Assembly (NCBI RefSeq): GCF_019798055.1
Contig: NZ_JAHOPH010000010.1
Location: 62,001 to 126,000, forward strand
DNA length: 64,000 nucleotides
Reading direction: 5' to 3'
DNA from: Salsipaludibacter albus
Lineage (GTDB): Bacteria; Actinomycetota; Nitriliruptoria; Nitriliruptorales; Nitriliruptoraceae
A model generated the notes under the pieces. The model was not told the DNA's origin and searched no databases. It saw nothing but the letters and a program-made list of their open reading frames with translations. A program made the position numbers and the translations under genes. Within the stretch, counting starts at the first letter, position 1; each line of letters begins with the position of its first letter. Below are positions 35,828 to 48,770 of the stretch, piece by piece.

Positions 35828-36484
35828 TCAGCGCCCGGGTTGGACGGCCAGCAGCGTGCCGGCCTCGATGGTGACCCGGGCCTCCGGAGCGACGAGCTCG
35901 TTGGACACCCCACGACTGGAACCCGGGACGAGCGACTCGTCCGACAGCTGGTACAGCAGGCCGGTGGTCGCGATGCCGTCCACCCGGCCGAAGACCGGCA
36001 GCAGCGTGACCACGTCACCGACCGAGCCACGCAGCTCGCGCGCGTCGGTGATGACCGACACGACCGCCTGCGTGGTCACGACCGTGACCCGGGCGTGCCG
36101 CGCGGCACGGGCCGCCACGAGCACGTTGGCAAGCTGGTGGTCGAACCGGTCACCGCCCCCGTCGCACACCACGATGTGGCGCGCGCCCCCCGCCAACGCC
36201 AGGTCCAGCGCGAGGTCGAGGTCGGTTGCGTCCTTGTCGGTGCTGTGGCGGCGGACGTCGATGCCCGCTGCGACCGCCCGGGAGACCTGCTCCGGGTCGA
36301 CCGAGTCGAGGTCACCGACGAGCACGTCGACGTCGAGGTCGAGCCGATCCGCGAGCGCCAGGCCCTGGTCGGCAGCGATGACACGGACGTCGTCCGCGGA
36401 GTCGGGGAGGTGCGCGGCGAACCGCGCGAGCGCCAACACGGTGGTCACGTCGCCACCGGCGGTGATCACCGCGGTCGACACCAT
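35828..36484 (-). CDS. thiN: thiamine diphosphokinase
   Basis: 218 aa. Makes TPP from imported thiamine and ATP. Signature blocks IAADQGLALADRL, VGDLDSVDPEQV and STDKDATDLDLALDLAL are those of the TPK family, with the dyad HQLANVLVAARAA after. The ATG at 36484 lies directly behind the TPP riboswitch, the start of the operon thiN-thiB-thiP-thiQ-like. This organisation means salvage of thiamine from outside, controlled by intracellular TPP. Conserved length for the family. Confidence 0.93.
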   Translation of the reverse strand: MVSTAVITAGGDVTTVLALARFAAHLPDSADDVRVIAADQGLALADRLDLDVDVLVGDLDSVDPEQVSRAVAAGIDVRRHSTDKDATDLDLALDLALAGGARHIVVCDGGGDRFDHQLANVLVAARAARHARVTVVTTQAVVSVITDARELRGSVGDVVTLLPVFGRVDGIATTGLLYQLSDESLVPGSSRGVSNELVAPEARVTIEAGTLLAVQPGR

Positions 36485-36489
36485 GACTC

Positions 36490-36599
36490 GCCCCTTCCTC
36501 CGCTGGCATTGTCCAGCTCAGGTTCCACGGGTCGGTGGCGCCGCCACGTTCTGGCAAGCCACCCTCTCAGCCCGGTCCTGCCCGAGCTCCCCGGGGGTG
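36490..36599 (-). promoter_or_regulatory. TPP riboswitch (THI element)
   Basis: On the minus strand the sequence reads GGGGAGC, then GGGCTGAGAGGGTGG, then ACCCGTGGAACCTGAGC, then CTGGACAATGCCAGCG and GGAGGAAGGGG. These are the conserved helices of the TPP aptamer (CTGAGA, ACCTGA and the AATgCCAGCG loop) in correct order and spacing. The GGAGGAAGGGG stretch is both the 3' side of the element and the RBS of thiN, so TPP would probably block ribosome entry. Confidence 0.95.
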
Positions 36600-36625
36600 C
36601 ACACGCCTCGAGGACGTGCAGGACG

Positions 36626-36678: not shown

Positions 36679-37629
36679 CTACAGCCAGCCGTGCCGTGAT
36701 GCCTGCACGCCCAGCTGGAACCTCGTCTGGGCGCCGAGCAGTTCCTGCAGCTGGCTGATCCGCCGACGCACGGTCCGCTCGGACACCTCCAGGTCCCGGG
36801 CGATGGCCTTGTCGGTCAGCCCGGCGGCGAGGTTGGTCAGCAGCCGTCGGGTCTCGGTGGACTCCTTGTCGATGTGGGCCGCGGTGGTCGAGCCCGACAC
36901 CGGCACGGCCAGACGCCAGAAGGCCTCGAAGACGCCCACCATCGTGTCCAGGAAGTCCGAGGCGTGGATGATCACGCCGTCGGCGAGGCGGCTGGAGGCC
37001 ACCCGCACCACGACCAGGGCGAACAGGTCGTCGGAGATCAGGAGGTTCATCGGCACCCCGGGGAAGACGCGGGCCTGCTCGCCGTGGAGGATGCAGTCCT
37101 GGACCATGGCCAGGGCCCCGGGGTTGCGCAGGACCTCGGCGCCGTAGATGGACCGCACCGTGGTGCCTCGATCGAGGGTCTCGAACAGCCCTTCTGCGAT
37201 GCGGAGCCGCTCGGTGCTGGAGCCGATCGACAGGGCCCGGACCTGGTCGCGCGAGTCGGCCAGCACCCGGGCCTGGATGCGTCGTGCCGCCTCCATCGTC
37301 GGGACGATCTCGAGGTAGTCCGCCCGTCCCTGGTGCAGCGACCACAGTTGCCCGAGCTGCTCGGCGGCCGTGCGGGCCAGGTCCGCCTCCCGTGCGCGGG
37401 CTCGGGCATACCGCTCCAGCGGCGTGCGCGGGGTGACCGCGACCATGCGTCCATCGACCCACACGAGCAGGCCGAGTGACTCGAGGTCCTCCACCGCGGT
37501 CTTGACCTCGTCGGCCGAAATGTCGAGATCGCTTGCCAACCGGCCCTCCGACGTGGCACGGTGGGCCATCAGGTGCGAGTAGACCCGGGTCGCGGGACCC
37601 GATGCACCGAGTTCGTGGAGCGGATCCAA
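36679..37629 (-). CDS. TrmB/LuxR-like transcriptional regulator
   Basis: 316 aa. Residues about 10-75 form an N-terminal winged helix like TrmB (VYSHLMAHRATSEGRLASDLDISADEVKTAVEDLESLGLLV). A coiled stretch and sensor domain of about 170 residues follow (VLADSRDQVRALSIGSSTERL, VFPGVPMNLLISDDLFALVV). The C-terminal 60 residues hold a LuxR-type HTH: RLLTNLAAGLTDKAIARDLEVSERTVRRRISQLQELLG. This architecture occurs in actinobacteria beside genes for small secreted peptides. Here the 65-aa peptide gene diverges, 244 bp between starts, with palindromes and direct repeats in between. It probably regulates that gene, with a ligand unknown. Confidence 0.85.
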   Translation of the reverse strand: MDPLHELGASGPATRVYSHLMAHRATSEGRLASDLDISADEVKTAVEDLESLGLLVWVDGRMVAVTPRTPLERYARARAREADLARTAAEQLGQLWSLHQGRADYLEIVPTMEAARRIQARVLADSRDQVRALSIGSSTERLRIAEGLFETLDRGTTVRSIYGAEVLRNPGALAMVQDCILHGEQARVFPGVPMNLLISDDLFALVVVRVASSRLADGVIIHASDFLDTMVGVFEAFWRLAVPVSGSTTAAHIDKESTETRRLLTNLAAGLTDKAIARDLEVSERTVRRRISQLQELLGAQTRFQLGVQASRHGWL

Positions 37630-37656
37630 CGTCGACGCCTTTCCGGGCTTGGGGGG

Positions 37657-37669
37657 CGGCCAATGGCCG
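37657..37669. promoter_or_regulatory. palindrome near the regulator start
   Basis: CGGCCAATGGCCG is a perfect 6+1+6 palindrome 28 bp before the regulator start. Candidate autoregulatory operator. Confidence 0.35.
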
Positions 37670-37694
37670 TCGTGGCAGGGGTACGTCGCGCTGT

Positions 37695-37724
37695 CCGGAA
37701 CCGGCCACGCCGGAAGCGGCCACC
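37695..37724. promoter_or_regulatory. tandem 15-bp direct repeats in the regulator-peptide spacer
   Basis: CCGGAACCGGCCACG and CCGGAAGCGGCCACC stand head to tail with 13 of 15 bases identical. A related TTCCGGCCGACC lies nearby at 37738. Such a pair suits a LuxR-type dimer or tandem binding between the divergent genes. Confidence 0.45.
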
Positions 37725-37873
37725 AATCCGTCTCGCGTTCCGGCCGACCGTCACCATAAAGTCTCTGGAAGACGGATTCGGCCCATCCCCCCGCAGCCGG
37801 TGAGGTCCTGGGGAGACACTATCCCATGGACGCCCGTCCACGACTGCCAACCACAGGGAAGGACAGGACTCAC

Positions 37874-38071
37874 ATGAAGCGGAAACTCGCCGCTCTCCTC
37901 TCCGCGGCAACGCTCGTCGGCTGCTCGGTGATCGCGACGACCGCCACGGCTGCGGAGGACAAGGCTCCCGAACAGGGCGCCACCGCCATCTTCGACATCG
38001 GCAACCAGAAGTCGGATGTCCTCGACATGGACCTGGTTCTCGGGTTCATGGGGATCTTCGACATCGGCTGA
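37874..38071 (+). CDS. 65-aa secreted peptide with duplicated IFDIG
   Basis: Short gene, ATG 37874. The N-terminus MKRK plus LAALLSAATL and VGCS is a signal peptide; the lipobox-like LVGC at Cys17 could make it a lipoprotein, or signal peptidase I could cut after TATAA near residue 27. The rest is acidic then hydrophobic. The pentapeptide IFDIG occurs at 39-43 and again as the last five residues 61-65, encoded by an identical 15-base stretch at both places. I know no family for it. It diverges from the TrmB/LuxR-like regulator gene and is followed by three hairpins including a clear terminator. I infer a signal peptide or modified-peptide precursor. Confidence 0.72.
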   Translation: MKRKLAALLSAATLVGCSVIATTATAAEDKAPEQGATAIFDIGNQKSDVLDMDLVLGFMGIFDIG

Positions 38072-38081
38072 TCAACAACGT

Positions 38082-38117
38082 GCTGTCGGCCGCGCACCCC
38101 CCCGCTCGGCCGGCAGC
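38082..38117 (+). other. first hairpin after the peptide gene
   Basis: GCTGTCGGCCG against CGGCCGGCAGC forms an imperfect 11-bp stem with one mismatch and a C-rich loop. Role unknown; perhaps 3' mRNA protection. Confidence 0.5.
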
Positions 38118-38147
38118 AGGTCCGGCGTCCCCGCGCCAAGGACCAGC

Positions 38148-38171
38148 AGGGTGCCACCCCCCCGGCACCCT
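38148..38171 (+). other. second hairpin after the peptide gene
   Basis: AGGGTGCC with GGCACCCT, an 8-bp stem around a C-rich 8-base loop, immediately before the terminator. Confidence 0.55.
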
Positions 38172-38173
38172 CC

Positions 38174-38208
38174 AACGGGGCGGGCCTCTGGCCCGCCCCG
38201 TTTCTCTG
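38174..38208 (+). terminator. rho-independent terminator of the peptide gene
   Basis: A perfect 13-bp stem AACGGGGCGGGCC and GGCCCGCCCCGTT with loop TCT, followed by the pyrimidine run TCTCT. It may also serve the convergent malic enzyme gene. Confidence 0.9.
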
Positions 38209-39864: not shown

Positions 39865-40932
39865 TCAGTCCCCGAGGAAGTCCGTGGTGAACGCGTCGTC
39901 GACGTCGATGGGGGCGGAGATGGCGTCCTCGGCGACCAGGAGGTCGTGGAGGTCCTGCCACTGCTCGGCGGTCTGCCAGCCCAGGCCGTGCTCGTCGGTC
40001 ATCGGCGAGGTGGCGTCGGCGAGCTCGGTGTCGAGCATGGCGCGCTGGTGGTCCCGGTCGGCCTCGGGGCCGGTCCACTCCAGCACGATGTCGACGGCCT
40101 GGTCAGGGTGACTGGCGGCCCAGGCGATGCCCTCCATGGCCGCATCGACGAAGTCGTCGAGCAGGTCGGGGTCGTCGGCGACCGTGTCCGCCGTGGCGAC
40201 GTAGGTCAGCCCGAGGGTCGGCACCCCGAAGTCGGCCGCGTCCCACAGGTTGAGTTCGTATCCCCACGAGGCGAGCGTGTCCGGCTCGTTGGACTTGTAG
40301 ATCGGGTAGACGTCGACCTGGCCCTCGGTCAGCACCCGGGGGTCGAAGCCGACGTTGACCAGCTCGACCTCGTCGCGGTCCAGCCCGACGGCGTCCATGA
40401 TCGCGAAGACGTCGGGGGCGGGCGTGCCCTTGAACCCGACGGTGTGCCCGGCCCAGTCCTGCGGGGTCTCGATGCCGGAGTCGGCCAGGGACACGTAGGC
40501 CTGCTGGCCGACCTGGCCGAGCAGGGCGAGGCTGACCAGCGGCAGGCCCGGGTCGGCACGGCGTTCCAGCAGCACGGCGGCGTCCTGGGTCGTGACCTGC
40601 ACGGTGTCGTTGGACAGCAGTTGGAGGTGCTCGCCCCCGCCCCCCGAGTGGGTGATCTCGACGTCCAGCCCGCGGTCGGCGAAGAACCCCTGCGCGTCGG
40701 CGACGTAGACCCCGACGAACGGCAGGTTGGCCTGTGGCGAGAACCCGGCCATGAAGGTCATGGACCGCATCTCGTCGACGGGGTCCTCGCCGGTCGCTCC
40801 ACCTGCCGGGGAGGAGGTCACGGTCGGCGAGGTGGGCTCGGTCGTCGGCGTGGCCGCGGGGGTCGAGGAGCAGGCGGCCACCAGGGCCACCAGGCCGACC
40901 GCGACGAACAGGCGGCGCAGGGAGGTGTGCAC
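39865..40932 (-). CDS. NMT1/THI5-like substrate-binding lipoprotein
   Basis: 355 aa from GTG 40932 (GTG 40956 would add 8 residues). Lipobox LVAAC with Cys21, then the NMT1/THI5 fold (FMAGFSPQANLPFVGVYVADAQGFFADRGLDVEI, DAAVLLERRADPGLPLVSLALLG). Such proteins bind pyrimidine precursors of thiamine, or riboflavin or other ring compounds. It belongs to an importer with permease and ATPase upstream; all are read leftward behind an IclR-PNPOx regulator. There is no TPP riboswitch upstream here, so the ligand remains open. Confidence 0.88.
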   Translation of the reverse strand: MHTSLRRLFVAVGLVALVAACSSTPAATPTTEPTSPTVTSSPAGGATGEDPVDEMRSMTFMAGFSPQANLPFVGVYVADAQGFFADRGLDVEITHSGGGGEHLQLLSNDTVQVTTQDAAVLLERRADPGLPLVSLALLGQVGQQAYVSLADSGIETPQDWAGHTVGFKGTPAPDVFAIMDAVGLDRDEVELVNVGFDPRVLTEGQVDVYPIYKSNEPDTLASWGYELNLWDAADFGVPTLGLTYVATADTVADDPDLLDDFVDAAMEGIAWAASHPDQAVDIVLEWTGPEADRDHQRAMLDTELADATSPMTDEHGLGWQTAEQWQDLHDLLVAEDAISAPIDVDDAFTTDFLGD

Positions 40933-40960
40933 GTGGATGGCGGTTCCTCGGGTCACGGCG

Positions 40961-41788
40961 TCAGGCCCGTCGCCAGGCCAGCGCACGTCGTTCCAGGCGG
41001 GTGACGAGGTGGTAGACCAGCGCGGACAACGCGGTCAGCACCAGCACGGCCGCGAACAGCGCGGGCATGCGAAGGTTGGTGTAGGCCAGCCACATCGAGC
41101 GGCCCAGCCCCGACGAGGCGCCCATCCACTCGGCCACGACCGCGCCGATCATCGCCAGTGGCGCCGACACCTTCAGGGCGGCGAACAGGTAGGGCCACGA
41201 GGTGGGCCAGCGCGCGTGGCGGAACACCGTGACCGGGTCGGCGTCGACCGAGGCGAACCAGTCCTCGATCGCCGGGTCGAGCGACCGGAACCCCTCCAGG
41301 GCGTTGACCAGCATCGGGAAGAACGTCAGCAGGGCGGTGACCAGGACCTTCGGGGCGTGGCCGAACCCCAGCCAGATGGTCAGGATCGGGGCCACGGCGA
41401 TGATCGGGGTCGACTTCGCGAGCAGGGCCATCGACAGCACCGCCTGCTCGAGGTTGCGGAAGAACGTGATCACCACGGCCAGTGCGAGCCCGACCGCCGT
41501 GCCGAGCACCAGTCCGGCCGCGGCCTCGCCCAGGGTCACCAGCGCCGCCGGGGCCAGGCTCGACGCGCCGTCGACGAGCGCGCGGACCACGGCCGTCGGC
41601 GCCGGGACGATCCACTCGGGCGTGCCGGTCAGCCGGACCCCGAGCTCCCAGGCCACGGCGGCGCCAACCAGCAGCAGGACACCGGCGACCGGCGTGACCC
41701 GCGACCTCGTCGCGGCAGCCGGCGACGGGTCCGCCGTCGGCGATCCCGTCGTGTCGGCTCGCGTGTCGGGGACGTCGAGCAGGCTCAT
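40961..41788 (-). CDS. ABC transporter permease, NMT1-type importer
   Basis: 275 aa. About six membrane helices and the cytoplasmic EAA loop (ALEGFRSLDPAIEDWFASVDA, with FRHARWPTSWPYLFAALK). This matches the SsuC/TauC/ThiX permease family. Its start overlaps the end of the ATPase gene by four bases, so the parts are translationally coupled. Confidence 0.92.
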   Translation of the reverse strand: MSLLDVPDTRADTTGSPTADPSPAAATRSRVTPVAGVLLLVGAAVAWELGVRLTGTPEWIVPAPTAVVRALVDGASSLAPAALVTLGEAAAGLVLGTAVGLALAVVITFFRNLEQAVLSMALLAKSTPIIAVAPILTIWLGFGHAPKVLVTALLTFFPMLVNALEGFRSLDPAIEDWFASVDADPVTVFRHARWPTSWPYLFAALKVSAPLAMIGAVVAEWMGASSGLGRSMWLAYTNLRMPALFAAVLVLTALSALVYHLVTRLERRALAWRRA

Positions 41789-44069: not shown

Positions 44070-47000
44070 ATGACGTCTCAAACTGCATCGATTTCGACCA
44101 GCACGCGCCTGTGGATCATCCTGGCCGCGGCCCTGCTGGTCATCGTGGCCCCGGGGCTCGCGTTCAGCCTCGCCGCCAACGCGGACGAGGCCGCGACCGC
44201 CGAGGAGGCCGCCGCCGAGGAGGAGGCTGCCGAGGAGGCGGCGTCCGCCGCTCGGTCGGCCGCGCCCGCCGAGGAGCCGGTGGAGGAGGTCGAGTCCGCC
44301 CCCGCCGAGGAGAAGGCTCCGGCCGAGGAGAAGGCCGCCGAAGAAGAGTCGGCCAAGGACGAGTCGGCCGCTGAGGACGAGGCTGCGGCGGAAGAAGAGT
44401 CTGCCGAGGAGGGTGAATCCTCGTCGGACCAGACGTCGTCGGAGGACGAGGCCGCCGAGGCCGTCGGAATCGAAGAGGAGGCGGTCGAGGAGGCCGTCGC
44501 GTCCCTGCTGACCCTGACCCCCGAGGCCAACTGCCCCCTGACCGGTGGTACCGGCTCCGGGCTCGCGGCTGGTTTCTCCATCGACGGCAACTGCGGCATC
44601 GACCCAGACGACCCCGGCGACACGAACACCGACTGGGACAGCGCCGTGGTGGGTGACCAGCCGGTCTTCATCGACGGGCTCGACGACGCCACCCAGTACG
44701 GCAACGGCGCGTCGGAGAACGACGATCCCCTGACCTGGGGAACCTCGAATGCGACCGCGTCCGGCCAGGCCGACATCGACCAGGTCTATGCCTGGGGCAC
44801 GACCATCGACGGCCAACTCTGGGGCTACCTCGGGTTCACCCGCGGTCCGGTCACGGGCAGCATCGGCTACACCGTCGAGCTCAACCAGTTGCCGAACGTC
44901 ATCGCCCCCTCCGGCGCGAGCGTCCCGAACCGCTCGGTCGGGGACCTGCGCTTCAACTTCACGCAGGGTGGCAACGACGAGCTCTTCCTGGAGCAGGTCG
45001 ACCGCTGGGACGGCGACTCGTGGGTTGACGCGTCGGCCGACATCGACGCGAGCACGTTCTTCTCCGGCGTCAGCACTGGCAAGCAGTTCGTGGAGATCGC
45101 CCTGAACATCACCGGGCTGCTCGACATCGCCCCCGGCTGCCCGCCGGCTGCCGACTTCGCCCAGCTCAACATCCGGTCGCGCCAGGCCGACCAGCTGAAC
45201 TCGGCCATGAAGGACTACGCCCAGACGCTGTTCGAGATCGAGAACACCTGCACGGCACTCGAGGTCACCAAGAACGTCGAGGGCGTGGCGGGTGACTGGG
45301 GTCCGTTCCAGTTCGAGCTCGAGGGTCCCGACGGGACCGAGGGCTTCTCGCTCGACAGCGACAGCCCCTCGATCGTGTTCGACGAGCTGAGCCCGGGTGA
45401 CGAGTACACGCTCACCGAGACTCCGGTGGAGGGCTACATCGCCGGCGACCTCGAGTGCACGTTCAACGGGGAACCGTTCGGTGACACGGACGGCACCTCG
45501 GTGACGTTCACCGCGCCGTCGGGCGACGGTGACAACACCACCATCGAGATCGAGTGCGAGATCACCAACACGGCGATCCCGTCCGAGGTGGAGGTGACCA
45601 AGACGGTCGCGGGTGTCGACGACTCCTTCGAGTGGGACTTCGAGTTCACGATCACGCCGGACGCGACGCCGGCCGGTGCGCAGACGGCGTCGGGGACGGG
45701 TGACGGTTCGGCCACGGTGACGTGGACCGACCTGGTGCCCGGCGAGGAGTACACGATCGCCGAGACCGCGGTCGAGGGCTTCGAGGCGGGGACGTTGGTG
45801 TGTGAGGATGCCGAGGGCAGTGTGGACACCGACGGTGTCGACGACGCGTCGGTGACCTTCATCGCCCCGTTGGGTGGCGAAGGTGTCGAGATCGTCTGTT
45901 CGATCACCAACACCGCGATCCCGTCGGAGGTCGAGGTGACCAAGACGGTCGCGGGTGTCGCCGACTCCTTCGAGTGGGACTTCGAGTTCACGATCACCCC
46001 GGACGCGACCCCCGCGGGTCCGCAGACGGCGTCGGGGACGGGTGACGGTTCGGCCACGGTGACGTGGACCGACCTGGTGCCCGGCGAGGAGTACACGATC
46101 GCCGAGACCGCGGTCGAGGGCTTCGAGGCGGGGACGTTGGTGTGTGAGGATGCCGAGGGCAGTGTGGACACCGACGGTGTCGACGACGCGTCGGTGACCT
46201 TCATCGCCCCGTTGGGTGGTGACGGCGTGGAGATCGTCTGTTCGATCACCAACACGCCCATCTCGTCGGAGGTCGAGGTGACCAAGACGGTCGCGGGTGT
46301 CGCTGACTCCTTCGAGTGGGACTTCGAGTTCACGATCACCCCGGACGCGACGCCTGCCGGTGCGCAGACGGCGTCGGGGACGGGTGACGGTTCGGCCACG
46401 GTCGGCTGGACCGACCTGGTGCCCGGCGAGGAGTACACGATCACCGAGGCCACGGTCGACGGCTTCGAGGCCGGCGACCTCGAGTGCGAGTTCGACGGCG
46501 AGGCCTTCGGCGAGACCGATGGCGCGTCGGTGACCTTCGTCGCGCCGCTGGGCGGCGAGGGTGTCGAGGTGACCTGTGAGATCACCAACACCGCGATCCC
46601 GGCCGACGTCGAGGTCACCAAGACCGTCGACGGCGTGGCGGACGACTTCGCGTGGTCGTTCGACTTCACCATCACGCCGACCCCGGACGGCGAGACATCG
46701 CCGCAGTCGGCATCCGGGTCGGGCAACACCTCGGACAGCGTGGCCTGGGGGAACCTGGTCCCGGGCGAGCAGTACACCATCACCGAGGTCGAGCAGGCCG
46801 GATACGAGGCCCAGGTGCTGGAGTGCGACGTCGAGGATCTCGATGGTGAGGCAGATGCATCCGTCACCTTCGTCGCCCCCCTGGGCGGTGAGGGGGTCGA
46901 GATCAACTGCACCCTGGTCAACGAGGCCCAGGCCGGTCAGCTGTCGATCATCAAGATCGTCTCTGGGGTGGCCGACGACTTCGCCTGGGGACCCTTCACC

Positions 47001-48770
47001 TTCCGCCTGACCCCCGACGACGGGTCCGAGCCGAGCGAGATGACGGTCGACAGCGACAATCCTGCGGCGCAGTTCGTGGACCTCGTGCCGGGCGTGAGCT
47101 ACCTGCTCGAGGAGGTCGACGTCCCGGCCGGCTATGACGCGGGTGCCATCGAGTGCTCTGTGTTCCGCGCCGACGACACGTTCGGACAGATCAGCCTTCC
47201 GTACCTGGTCCAGCCTGGGGACGACGTCGTGTGCGACGTGACGAACGTCGCGCGGCCGTCCCAGGTGACGGTGACCAAGGAGGTCGTCGGGATCGACGAG
47301 TCGCTGGACTGGGAGTTCGAGTTCACGATCAGCCCGGAGACCGACGGGGAGGACGCCACACAGACCGCCTCCGGCACCGGTGAGGGCACGTCGGTCGTGG
47401 GTTGGAACGCGCTCGTCCCGGGTGAGACCTACACGATCACCGAGACGACGGTCGGCGGCTACGACGCCGGCGACCTGACCTGCCAGCTCGGCGAGGGCGA
47501 CTTCGGCGAGAGCGACGGCGTCTCGGTGACCTTCGAGGCCCCGCTGGACCTCGATGCCGAGGGTCCGGAGATCACCTGTGGGATCACCAACACGGCGATC
47601 CCGTCCGAGGTGGACGTGACCAAGACGGTCGAGGGTGTCGCGGACGACTGGATGTGGTCGTTCGACTTCACGATCGACCCGGTGCCGGGTGAGCAGGACG
47701 CCACGCTGGCGGCCGCGGGGACGGGCGACTCGTCCGCGACCGTCGGCTGGACCGACCTGGTTCCGGGCGAGTCCTACACCATCTCGGAGACGACGCAGGC
47801 CGGGTTCGAGGCGCCCACGCTGGTGTGTGAGGGTGTCGACGACACCGACGGCGCGGACGACGCGTCCGTGACGTTCGTCGCGCCGCTCGGTGGTGAGGGG
47901 GTCGAGATCACCTGCTCGATCACCAACACCGCGCGTCCGTCGCAGGTCGAGGTGACCAAGACGGTCGTCGGCATCGCCGACGACTGGGACTGGTCGTTCG
48001 ACTTCACCATCGCCCCGGCCACGGACGACGAGGACGCCACGCAGACCGCCAGCGGCACCGGTGACGGTGACGCCACGGTCGGCTGGGACAACCTCGTCCC
48101 CGGCGAGACCTACACCATCGCCGAGACCACGATCGACGGCTTCACCGCCAGCGAGTTCGTCTGCGAGGGTCTGGACGACCTCGACGAGGACCCGACCACG
48201 GTGACCTTCGTGGCACCCCTGGACGTCGACGAGCAGGCACCCGAGGTGACCTGTTCGATCACCAACACCGCCGCACCCGGCATGCTGGAGATCGTCAAGT
48301 CGACCGTCGGTGGTGACGGCAGCTTCACCTTCGCGTTGACGCCCGAGGGCGGCGACCCGGTCAACCTGGACGTGACCACGTCCGGCGGCACCGGGAGCGT
48401 CGTCGTCAGCGACATCGTCCCGGGCACGACCTGGACGCTGTCCGAGGTCGAGCCCGGTGGAGGCTGGATCGCAGGCGACCTGACCTGCACCGTGACCCAC
48501 GTGGACGCGTCGACCGAGGACGTCGATCCGGCGATGGCCTTCACGGTCCTGCCGGGTGACGCGATCAGCTGCGCGATCACCAACACGTTGCCCCCGCCGC
48601 CGCCGCCGCCGCCGCCTCCGCCACCGCCTCCTCCGCCGCCGCCTCCGCCGATCCTGCCCCACACCGGGGTGGACCTGCCGTGGCTGGTCGCGGCCGCGAG
48701 CGTGCTGCTCCTGGCCGGCGCTGCCCTGGTGGGCGTCGGTCGCCGCGACCGTCGCCGCGAGGTCTCGTGA
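44070..48770 (+). CDS. giant repeat surface protein with LPHTG sorting signal
   Basis: 1566 aa. Signal peptide with one strong hydrophobic stretch (about 14-37), then an Ala/Glu-rich disordered zone to about 150, a unique domain of about 230 residues (IDGLDDATQYGNGASEN, EIALNITGLLDIAPGCPP), and about ten repeats of roughly 110 aa related to the CnaB/SpaA-like DUF5979 type. Each repeat starts with a Lys in a TK strand, has a Glu in YTIxE and ends in C-x-ITN, a pattern fit for Lys-Asn isopeptide bonds. Then 20 prolines, LPHTG (1529-1533), a membrane helix and a basic tail. This is sortase anchoring to the wall. No sortase gene is in the window. Probably an adhesin or stalk. Confidence 0.92.
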   Translation: MTSQTASISTSTRLWIILAAALLVIVAPGLAFSLAANADEAATAEEAAAEEEAAEEAASAARSAAPAEEPVEEVESAPAEEKAPAEEKAAEEESAKDESAAEDEAAAEEESAEEGESSSDQTSSEDEAAEAVGIEEEAVEEAVASLLTLTPEANCPLTGGTGSGLAAGFSIDGNCGIDPDDPGDTNTDWDSAVVGDQPVFIDGLDDATQYGNGASENDDPLTWGTSNATASGQADIDQVYAWGTTIDGQLWGYLGFTRGPVTGSIGYTVELNQLPNVIAPSGASVPNRSVGDLRFNFTQGGNDELFLEQVDRWDGDSWVDASADIDASTFFSGVSTGKQFVEIALNITGLLDIAPGCPPAADFAQLNIRSRQADQLNSAMKDYAQTLFEIENTCTALEVTKNVEGVAGDWGPFQFELEGPDGTEGFSLDSDSPSIVFDELSPGDEYTLTETPVEGYIAGDLECTFNGEPFGDTDGTSVTFTAPSGDGDNTTIEIECEITNTAIPSEVEVTKTVAGVDDSFEWDFEFTITPDATPAGAQTASGTGDGSATVTWTDLVPGEEYTIAETAVEGFEAGTLVCEDAEGSVDTDGVDDASVTFIAPLGGEGVEIVCSITNTAIPSEVEVTKTVAGVADSFEWDFEFTITPDATPAGPQTASGTGDGSATVTWTDLVPGEEYTIAETAVEGFEAGTLVCEDAEGSVDTDGVDDASVTFIAPLGGDGVEIVCSITNTPISSEVEVTKTVAGVADSFEWDFEFTITPDATPAGAQTASGTGDGSATVGWTDLVPGEEYTITEATVDGFEAGDLECEFDGEAFGETDGASVTFVAPLGGEGVEVTCEITNTAIPADVEVTKTVDGVADDFAWSFDFTITPTPDGETSPQSASGSGNTSDSVAWGNLVPGEQYTITEVEQAGYEAQVLECDVEDLDGEADASVTFVAPLGGEGVEINCTLVNEAQAGQLSIIKIVSGVADDFAWGPFTFRLTPDDGSEPSEMTVDSDNPAAQFVDLVPGVSYLLEEVDVPAGYDAGAIECSVFRADDTFGQISLPYLVQPGDDVVCDVTNVARPSQVTVTKEVVGIDESLDWEFEFTISPETDGEDATQTASGTGEGTSVVGWNALVPGETYTITETTVGGYDAGDLTCQLGEGDFGESDGVSVTFEAPLDLDAEGPEITCGITNTAIPSEVDVTKTVEGVADDWMWSFDFTIDPVPGEQDATLAAAGTGDSSATVGWTDLVPGESYTISETTQAGFEAPTLVCEGVDDTDGADDASVTFVAPLGGEGVEITCSITNTARPSQVEVTKTVVGIADDWDWSFDFTIAPATDDEDATQTASGTGDGDATVGWDNLVPGETYTIAETTIDGFTASEFVCEGLDDLDEDPTTVTFVAPLDVDEQAPEVTCSITNTAAPGMLEIVKSTVGGDGSFTFALTPEGGDPVNLDVTTSGGTGSVVVSDIVPGTTWTLSEVEPGGGWIAGDLTCTVTHVDASTEDVDPAMAFTVLPGDAISCAITNTLPPPPPPPPPPPPPPPPPPPPILPHTGVDLPWLVAAASVLLLAGAALVGVGRRDRRREVS
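45591..46616 (+). repeat. three 342-bp tandem repeats inside the surface-protein gene
   Basis: Units beginning GAGGTGACCA at 45591, 45933 and 46275 are 342 bp (114 codons) apart. The first two are almost identical at DNA level over their whole length; the third matches for about 170 bp and then differs. Such units recombine easily and can change the length of the protein. Confidence 0.88.
48591..48650 (+). repeat. 60-bp proline codon tract (20 Pro)
   Basis: Twenty consecutive proline codons, seven of them CCG in a row near the start, precede the LPHTG signal. Slippage could change the length; translation would need EF-P. Confidence 0.9.

Follow-up and report, generated by a model that had tools for sequence, protein, structure and literature searches.

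The window analysed here, a stretch of 64,000 nucleotides from Salsipaludibacter albus, whose genome comprises 4.25 Mb in 79 contigs, holds a divergent gene pair formed by a one-component regulator of the TrmB-LuxR type and a short secreted peptide precursor, with a 244-bp spacer between the two genes. In our judgement the chances are even that this is an autoregulated, pheromone-like pair, in which the C-terminal pentapeptide of the precursor, IFDIG, is the matured signal. Selection on the final five residues is well supported by sequence comparison, and so is regulation of the peptide gene by its divergent neighbour, since the repeats in the spacer correspond to a conserved operator. An original prediction, made from the letters of the window alone, had described the 316-residue regulator, the divergent 65-residue open reading frame (ORF) and the length of the spacer, and had proposed that IFDIG could act as a signal sensed by the regulator; the layout and the spacer length were confirmed on re-reading the sequence, the ORFs and their translations. 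The genes and the elements around them are the following:

36679..37629, minus strand: TrmB-LuxR one-component regulator gene, 316 residues, TTG start (ORF list and translation)
37657-37669, no strand: palindrome of 6+1+6 bp, CGGCCA-A-TGGCCG (sequence)
37692..37722, no strand: operator of about 31 bp, TGTCCGGAACCGGCCACGCCGGAAGCGGCCA, overlapping both direct repeats (sequence comparison across the clade)
37695-37709, no strand: first of two 15-bp direct repeats (sequence)
37710-37724, no strand: second of the two 15-bp direct repeats (sequence)
37757..37762, plus strand: -10-like hexamer TAAAGT of the predicted peptide promoter (TATCGT at the conserved position in the orthologue)
37874..38071, plus strand: secreted peptide precursor gene, 65 residues (ORF list and translation)
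37988..38002, plus strand: first IFDIG copy, residues 39-43 (sequence and translation)
38054..38071 (G000:C2:100054-100071), plus strand: second IFDIG copy, residues 61-65, with the stop codon, ATCTTCGACATCGGCTGA

The precursor, its C-terminus and its operator

The 65-residue product, MKRKLAALLSAATLVGCSVIATTATAAEDKAPEQGATAIFDIGNQKSDVLDMDLVLGFMGIFDIG, starts with a Sec-type signal (KRK, a hydrophobic core and cleavage between ATA and AE) and contains two copies of IFDIG, the latter of which forms the C-terminus, as had been noted beforehand. When the 39 residues of the mature part were shuffled, the C-terminal pentamer recurred in 2.8e-5 of the trials. Both copies are indeed encoded by the same 15 bases, an identity that adds little weight because the neighbouring genes use ATC, TTC and GAC at 94-99% (GGC at 54%) and which mostly reflects codon bias.

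The comparison with one genome of the same genus, matching the record Nitriliruptorales bacterium LH_M21 and referred to as the sister genome, bears most directly on the C-terminus. Absence of the short gene or of the pair from relatives had been named in advance as the outcome that would speak against the proposal; what was found is a syntenic pair, with a regulator 67% identical to that of S. albus and a 44-residue precursor, MKKSLVAIAAAAAMLLATVGATAADAAPANHASLTGAHRILDIG, that bears the motif once, ends in ILDIG and is followed by malic enzyme sequence. A comparison of the two peptides shows recognisable conservation in the secretion signal and in the C-terminal I[FL]DIG only, the remaining mature part having changed; on composition alone, a match of four out of five C-terminal residues has a chance of 1e-4. 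Furthermore, the DNA pattern for I[FL]DIG followed by a stop codon was found in these two genes only among 27 whole genomes, with no occurrence of the reversed pattern used as control. Whole-peptide searches returned no homologue in contigs of 84,980 species and, in 40 relatives, the sister orthologue alone (E 0.18); short diverging peptides of this sort are detectable by position, not by similarity. A second DNA match in the genome, at C12, was rejected as a chance GANAIFDI inside an unrelated 466-residue protein.

Regarding the spacer, the palindrome beside the regulator gene that had been reported is present but is unconserved in the sister genome; the direct repeats, also reported, are kept there and form part of a clade-wide operator. 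This operator is common to the S. albus regulator and to regulators about 45% identical to it in Kribbella, Microtetraspora and Streptomyces, in the versions CCGGATGTTGCCATGCCGGATGTGGTCA (sister), CGACAGGTTCCCGCCATGCCGGATTCCGACAG (Kribbella), TGTCACTTTCCTGCCATGCCGGATTCCGACAG (Streptomyces) and TGTCATATTCCGGACATGCCGGATCATGACA (Microtetraspora). Since the S. albus and sister genomes each contain a single exact occurrence of the operator, and looser matches elsewhere (two mismatches) stay at background level, the exact site most likely serves the peptide gene and little else. In both genomes 52-53 bp separate the -10-like hexamer from the core of the operator, and other members of the clade show a conserved block at about the same offset. 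The operator centre would fall near -60, a common position for an activator, and from this position we infer that the regulator activates rather than represses the peptide gene.

The regulator and the Trp-motif peptides of a separate clade

The regulator shows both marks of the TrmB-LuxR class, namely a TrmB winged helix-turn-helix (HTH) with a PLD-fold domain, and a C-terminal LuxR/GerE HTH:

Residues about 1-65: N-terminal winged HTH of TrmB type, followed by a helical linker
Residues about 105-245: PLD-fold effector domain of TrmB type
Residues about 255-316: C-terminal LuxR/GerE HTH

A Pfam scan recovers the N-terminal HTH and the GerE HTH (PF00196, residues 263-306, above cut-off), and a profile search matches residues 7-242 to TrmBL2 (E 2e-13) and residues 252-313 to DevR. 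The AlphaFold model (mean predicted local distance difference test score 86, predicted template modelling score 0.60, domain placement uncertain) retrieves in a fold search archaeal TrmBL2 and TrmB (5box, 5bpd, 3qph, 2f5t) as well as PLD-fold proteins; neither the Pfam scan nor the fold search gives a TPR domain. No membrane-spanning stretch was found: the most hydrophobic 19 residues reach a Kyte-Doolittle mean of only 1.65 and are located among the strands of the PLD-fold domain, so that the regulator is most likely cytosolic and any external signal must therefore get into the cell. The S. albus genome encodes binding proteins of the Opp type (PF00496).

The earlier statement that TrmB-LuxR regulators stand beside small secreted peptide genes in actinobacteria is borne out by a survey of loci reached via Streptomyces homologues. 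In a separate clade of the regulator family, a small secreted peptide whose last five residues include Trp lies opposite the regulator at 30 of 56 loci. This proportion is not a whole-family rate, because the 56 loci were those that scored best with a profile to which peptide-linked regulators had contributed in part; control DNA of three times the amount held three such ORFs, and shuffled sequence 0.6. The endings comprise DMGWQ and kin, VIGWD, SINWD, TTVWE, DVTWG and DSLWD. Outside the last five or six residues these peptides are not conserved, and although the filter selected Trp at position -2, the unselected positions -1, -3, -5 and -6 are also conserved. Internal copies of the motif are present in 8 of 27 precursors (up to four copies), and the motif types group with the subclades of the regulator tree. 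Two example pairs are WP_331741920.1 with WP_331741917.1, and WP_328304659.1 with WP_328304655.1, both peptides being annotated as "hypothetical protein"; none of seven Trp peptides examined reaches a Pfam or NCBIfam cut-off. One case of the Trp type, DTGWD (G040), falls in the window's own class. No description of the pairing was found in the open-licence literature, and an earlier account may exist elsewhere.

Some candidates were discarded. Matches to a search with the Streptomyces DPGWQ peptide were mostly noise, G179, G412 and G452 alone holding on checking, and weak Trp-ending ORFs of Amycolatopsis and Micromonospora (FGVSPVWK-like) were judged spurious, as they do not resemble exported peptides and reappear in alignment with further conserved sequence.

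Other observations concern the surroundings of these regulators. Several Streptomyces loci contain an ORF for a cytosolic protein of 90-107 residues between the regulator and the Trp peptide (L263:3575-3895; upstream regions of L195, L210, L211 and L213; e.g., WP_328304657.1, hypothetical), possibly a third component. On the Streptomyces linear plasmids NZ_CP108701.1 and NZ_CP108363.1 (L261, L262), a regulator/DDMGWG peptide pair adjoins a MupA/Atu3671-type monooxygenase gene, in what is likely a biosynthetic cluster. In Lentzea, small secreted peptides that carry PDGNDVLIA-like repeats in tandem are encoded about 1.6-2 kb from a related regulator:

L062:3203-3388, minus strand: Lentzea repeat peptide
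L066:3170-3361, minus strand: Lentzea repeat peptide
L075:2954-3139, minus strand: Lentzea repeat peptide

Pheromone, output or another kind of product

In the pheromone reading, the regulator would bind the operator, some 60 bp before the probable start of transcription, and thereby drive the divergent peptide gene, and the peptide would be exported by Sec and lose its signal sequence. The C-terminal IFDIG (ILDIG in the sister) might then be cut free outside the cell, taken back up, for instance by an Opp-type permease, and bound in the cytosol by the regulator's PLD-fold domain, which would complete a feedback loop; two motif copies per precursor would raise the signal yield. On a broader scale, we see slightly less than an even chance that actinobacteria hold a large undescribed class of cytosolic TrmB-PLD-LuxR receptors for pentapeptides, released from the C-terminus of divergent, often multi-copy secreted precursors, with the S. 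albus pair as a second, Trp-less lineage that originated at a site where, in relatives, this operator still precedes a protease gene. It might be guessed that the family senses short peptides generally, protease-derived in one branch and supplied by dedicated precursors in others.

Several findings weigh against the pheromone proposal. The DIG peptide is found in two species only, and no transporter, protease or other dedicated partner adjoins the pair, whose neighbours are malic enzyme and thiamine genes; the original prediction had likewise seen no transporter or modifying enzyme there. The regulators that face Trp peptides form a clade of their own with about 30% identity, and there is no Trp in IFDIG or ILDIG. 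The S. albus pair shares with that class the exported precursor and the conserved C-terminal pentamer, and neither the Trp nor the clade membership. Finally, the nearest regulators (42-48% identical, in one clade with the S. albus and sister pair, support 99) mostly have another partner: 13 of the 25 members of this clade face, under the same operator, a secreted HExxH (HEFGH-type) metalloprotease, a call that rests on the motif, Pfam giving a sub-threshold M48 match only. These protease-like proteins have 390-470 residues (Kribbella, Microtetraspora, Streptomyces; L039-L058). The ligand of the S. albus regulator therefore need not be this precursor's peptide, and may be something older than it.

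From these relatives comes the strongest alternative, which on the whole we doubt while holding it a real possibility: the peptide would be output only, and the regulator would sense another cue (a sugar, a metabolite, general extracellular peptides) and switch on a secreted product, a metalloprotease in Kribbella and others and here a small effector (an inhibitor, a surface peptide or something bacteriocin-like) that would need its C-terminus to act on its target. The protease gene under the same operator with similar promoter spacing fits such a scheme, as do the subtilisin-, sedolisin- or C39-like secreted proteins adjoining more distant family members (assigned by eye, not by profile) and the binding of sugars by TrmB-fold effector domains (fold matches 2f5t and 3qph). 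By itself, however, it leaves unexplained the retention of no more than the last five residues, the duplication within the precursor and the parallel with the Trp-motif precursors. As a separate observation, the S. albus genome encodes an HExxH metalloprotease homologue at a different locus (C16:48270-49340; L240, L256), 40% identical to the Kribbella one, with no operator seen upstream of its gene; no such homologue was found in the sister genome.

The other alternatives concern the nature of the peptide. That it is a small lipoprotein anchored via a lipobox cysteine is improbable: LVGC fits a lipobox and gives a weak LPAM_1 match (E 0.17, Pfam scan), but the orthologue has no such cysteine, so that, of the signal peptide or lipobox offered earlier, what is conserved is ordinary Sec export with cleavage at AxA. 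Still less credit is due to a precursor of a ribosomally synthesised and post-translationally modified peptide (RiPP), another option of the original prediction and one without support here; despite the short precursor, the leader-like part and the repeated core, the leader is a Sec signal, no RiPP family matches, and the neighbours are no modifying enzymes, the malic enzyme being adjacent in the sister too. The least probable reading is that the ORF is not a gene and the repeat arose by chance, since the absence of any Pfam or NCBIfam match above cut-off for the DIG peptides is set against an orthologue in the corresponding position whose two ends match, conserved promoter elements and a G+C content at third codon positions of 88%, the level expected of coding DNA.

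Genomic setting and known systems

The pair lies between a malic enzyme gene and a thiamin pyrophosphokinase/thiamine locus behind a thiamine pyrophosphate (TPP) riboswitch. Behind the riboswitch, an ABC transporter set (SBP_bac_6, BPD_transp_1, ABC_tran) reaches down to 31482, and a gene for an NMT1/THI5-like binding protein is located at 39868-40986, the thiamine uptake region thus flanking the pair. Further features are:

36478-36603, minus strand: TPP riboswitch (RF00059), 5' of thiamin pyrophosphokinase
38174..38202, plus strand: strong GC hairpin 3' of the peptide gene (-29 kcal/mol for the folded 36-nt stretch)

The hairpin is possibly the end of a one-gene transcript; it lacks the T-run looked for by the terminator scan. 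Farther away, 44070-48770 (plus strand) encodes a secreted protein of 1566 residues that looks like a wall-anchored surface stalk. It has seven prealbumin-like repeats (SpaA_4), a poly-Pro stretch and an LPHTG-like motif, and ends in a hydrophobic tail.

If such genes are receptor and pheromone pairs, the ligands of many orphan LuxR-type regulators could be synthesised straight from sequence. Regulator-peptide pairs of this kind number several per Streptomyces genome, some of them beside biosynthetic genes, and could then offer a way of switching silent clusters.

Among known systems, the closest regulators are those of the HExxH loci of Kribbella, Microtetraspora and Streptomyces (42-48% identity), with the same operator and a similar -10 offset, where the operator precedes a gene for a protease-like protein of 390-470 residues instead of a peptide. 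The Streptomyces Trp-peptide systems share the regulator architecture, the divergent small Sec-exported precursor, the conserved C-terminal pentamer and, in some, tandem copies; they differ in the Trp at the second-last position, the separate clade and the extra ORF of 90-107 residues at some loci. Archaeal TrmB and TrmBL2 (PDB 3qph, 2f5t, 5box, 5bpd) have in common with the S. albus regulator the N-terminal winged HTH and the PLD-fold effector domain, whereas the latter possesses an additional C-terminal LuxR/GerE HTH and faces a gene for a secreted product. The RRNPP systems of Firmicutes (Rap-Phr, PlcR-PapR, NprR-NprX, Paenibacillus Alo; PMC7425212, PMC10075063) also combine a receptor gene with an adjacent short secreted precursor, a cytosolic receptor and a signal of about five residues expected at the extreme C-terminus, where Phr pentapeptides are usually situated (PMC7425212). 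In S. albus, an export signal and a conserved C-terminal pentamer, the putative signal, are observed next to the regulator; its presumed receptor is of the TrmB/PLD-fold type with a LuxR HTH and no TPR domain found, the genes are divergent rather than in a receptor-then-peptide operon, and the host is an actinobacterium. A peptide with a cytosolic receptor is already known as a kind from RRNPP; the S. albus pair, as a putative signalling system, departs from it in the fold of the receptor, in its divergent gene order and in the phylum of the host.
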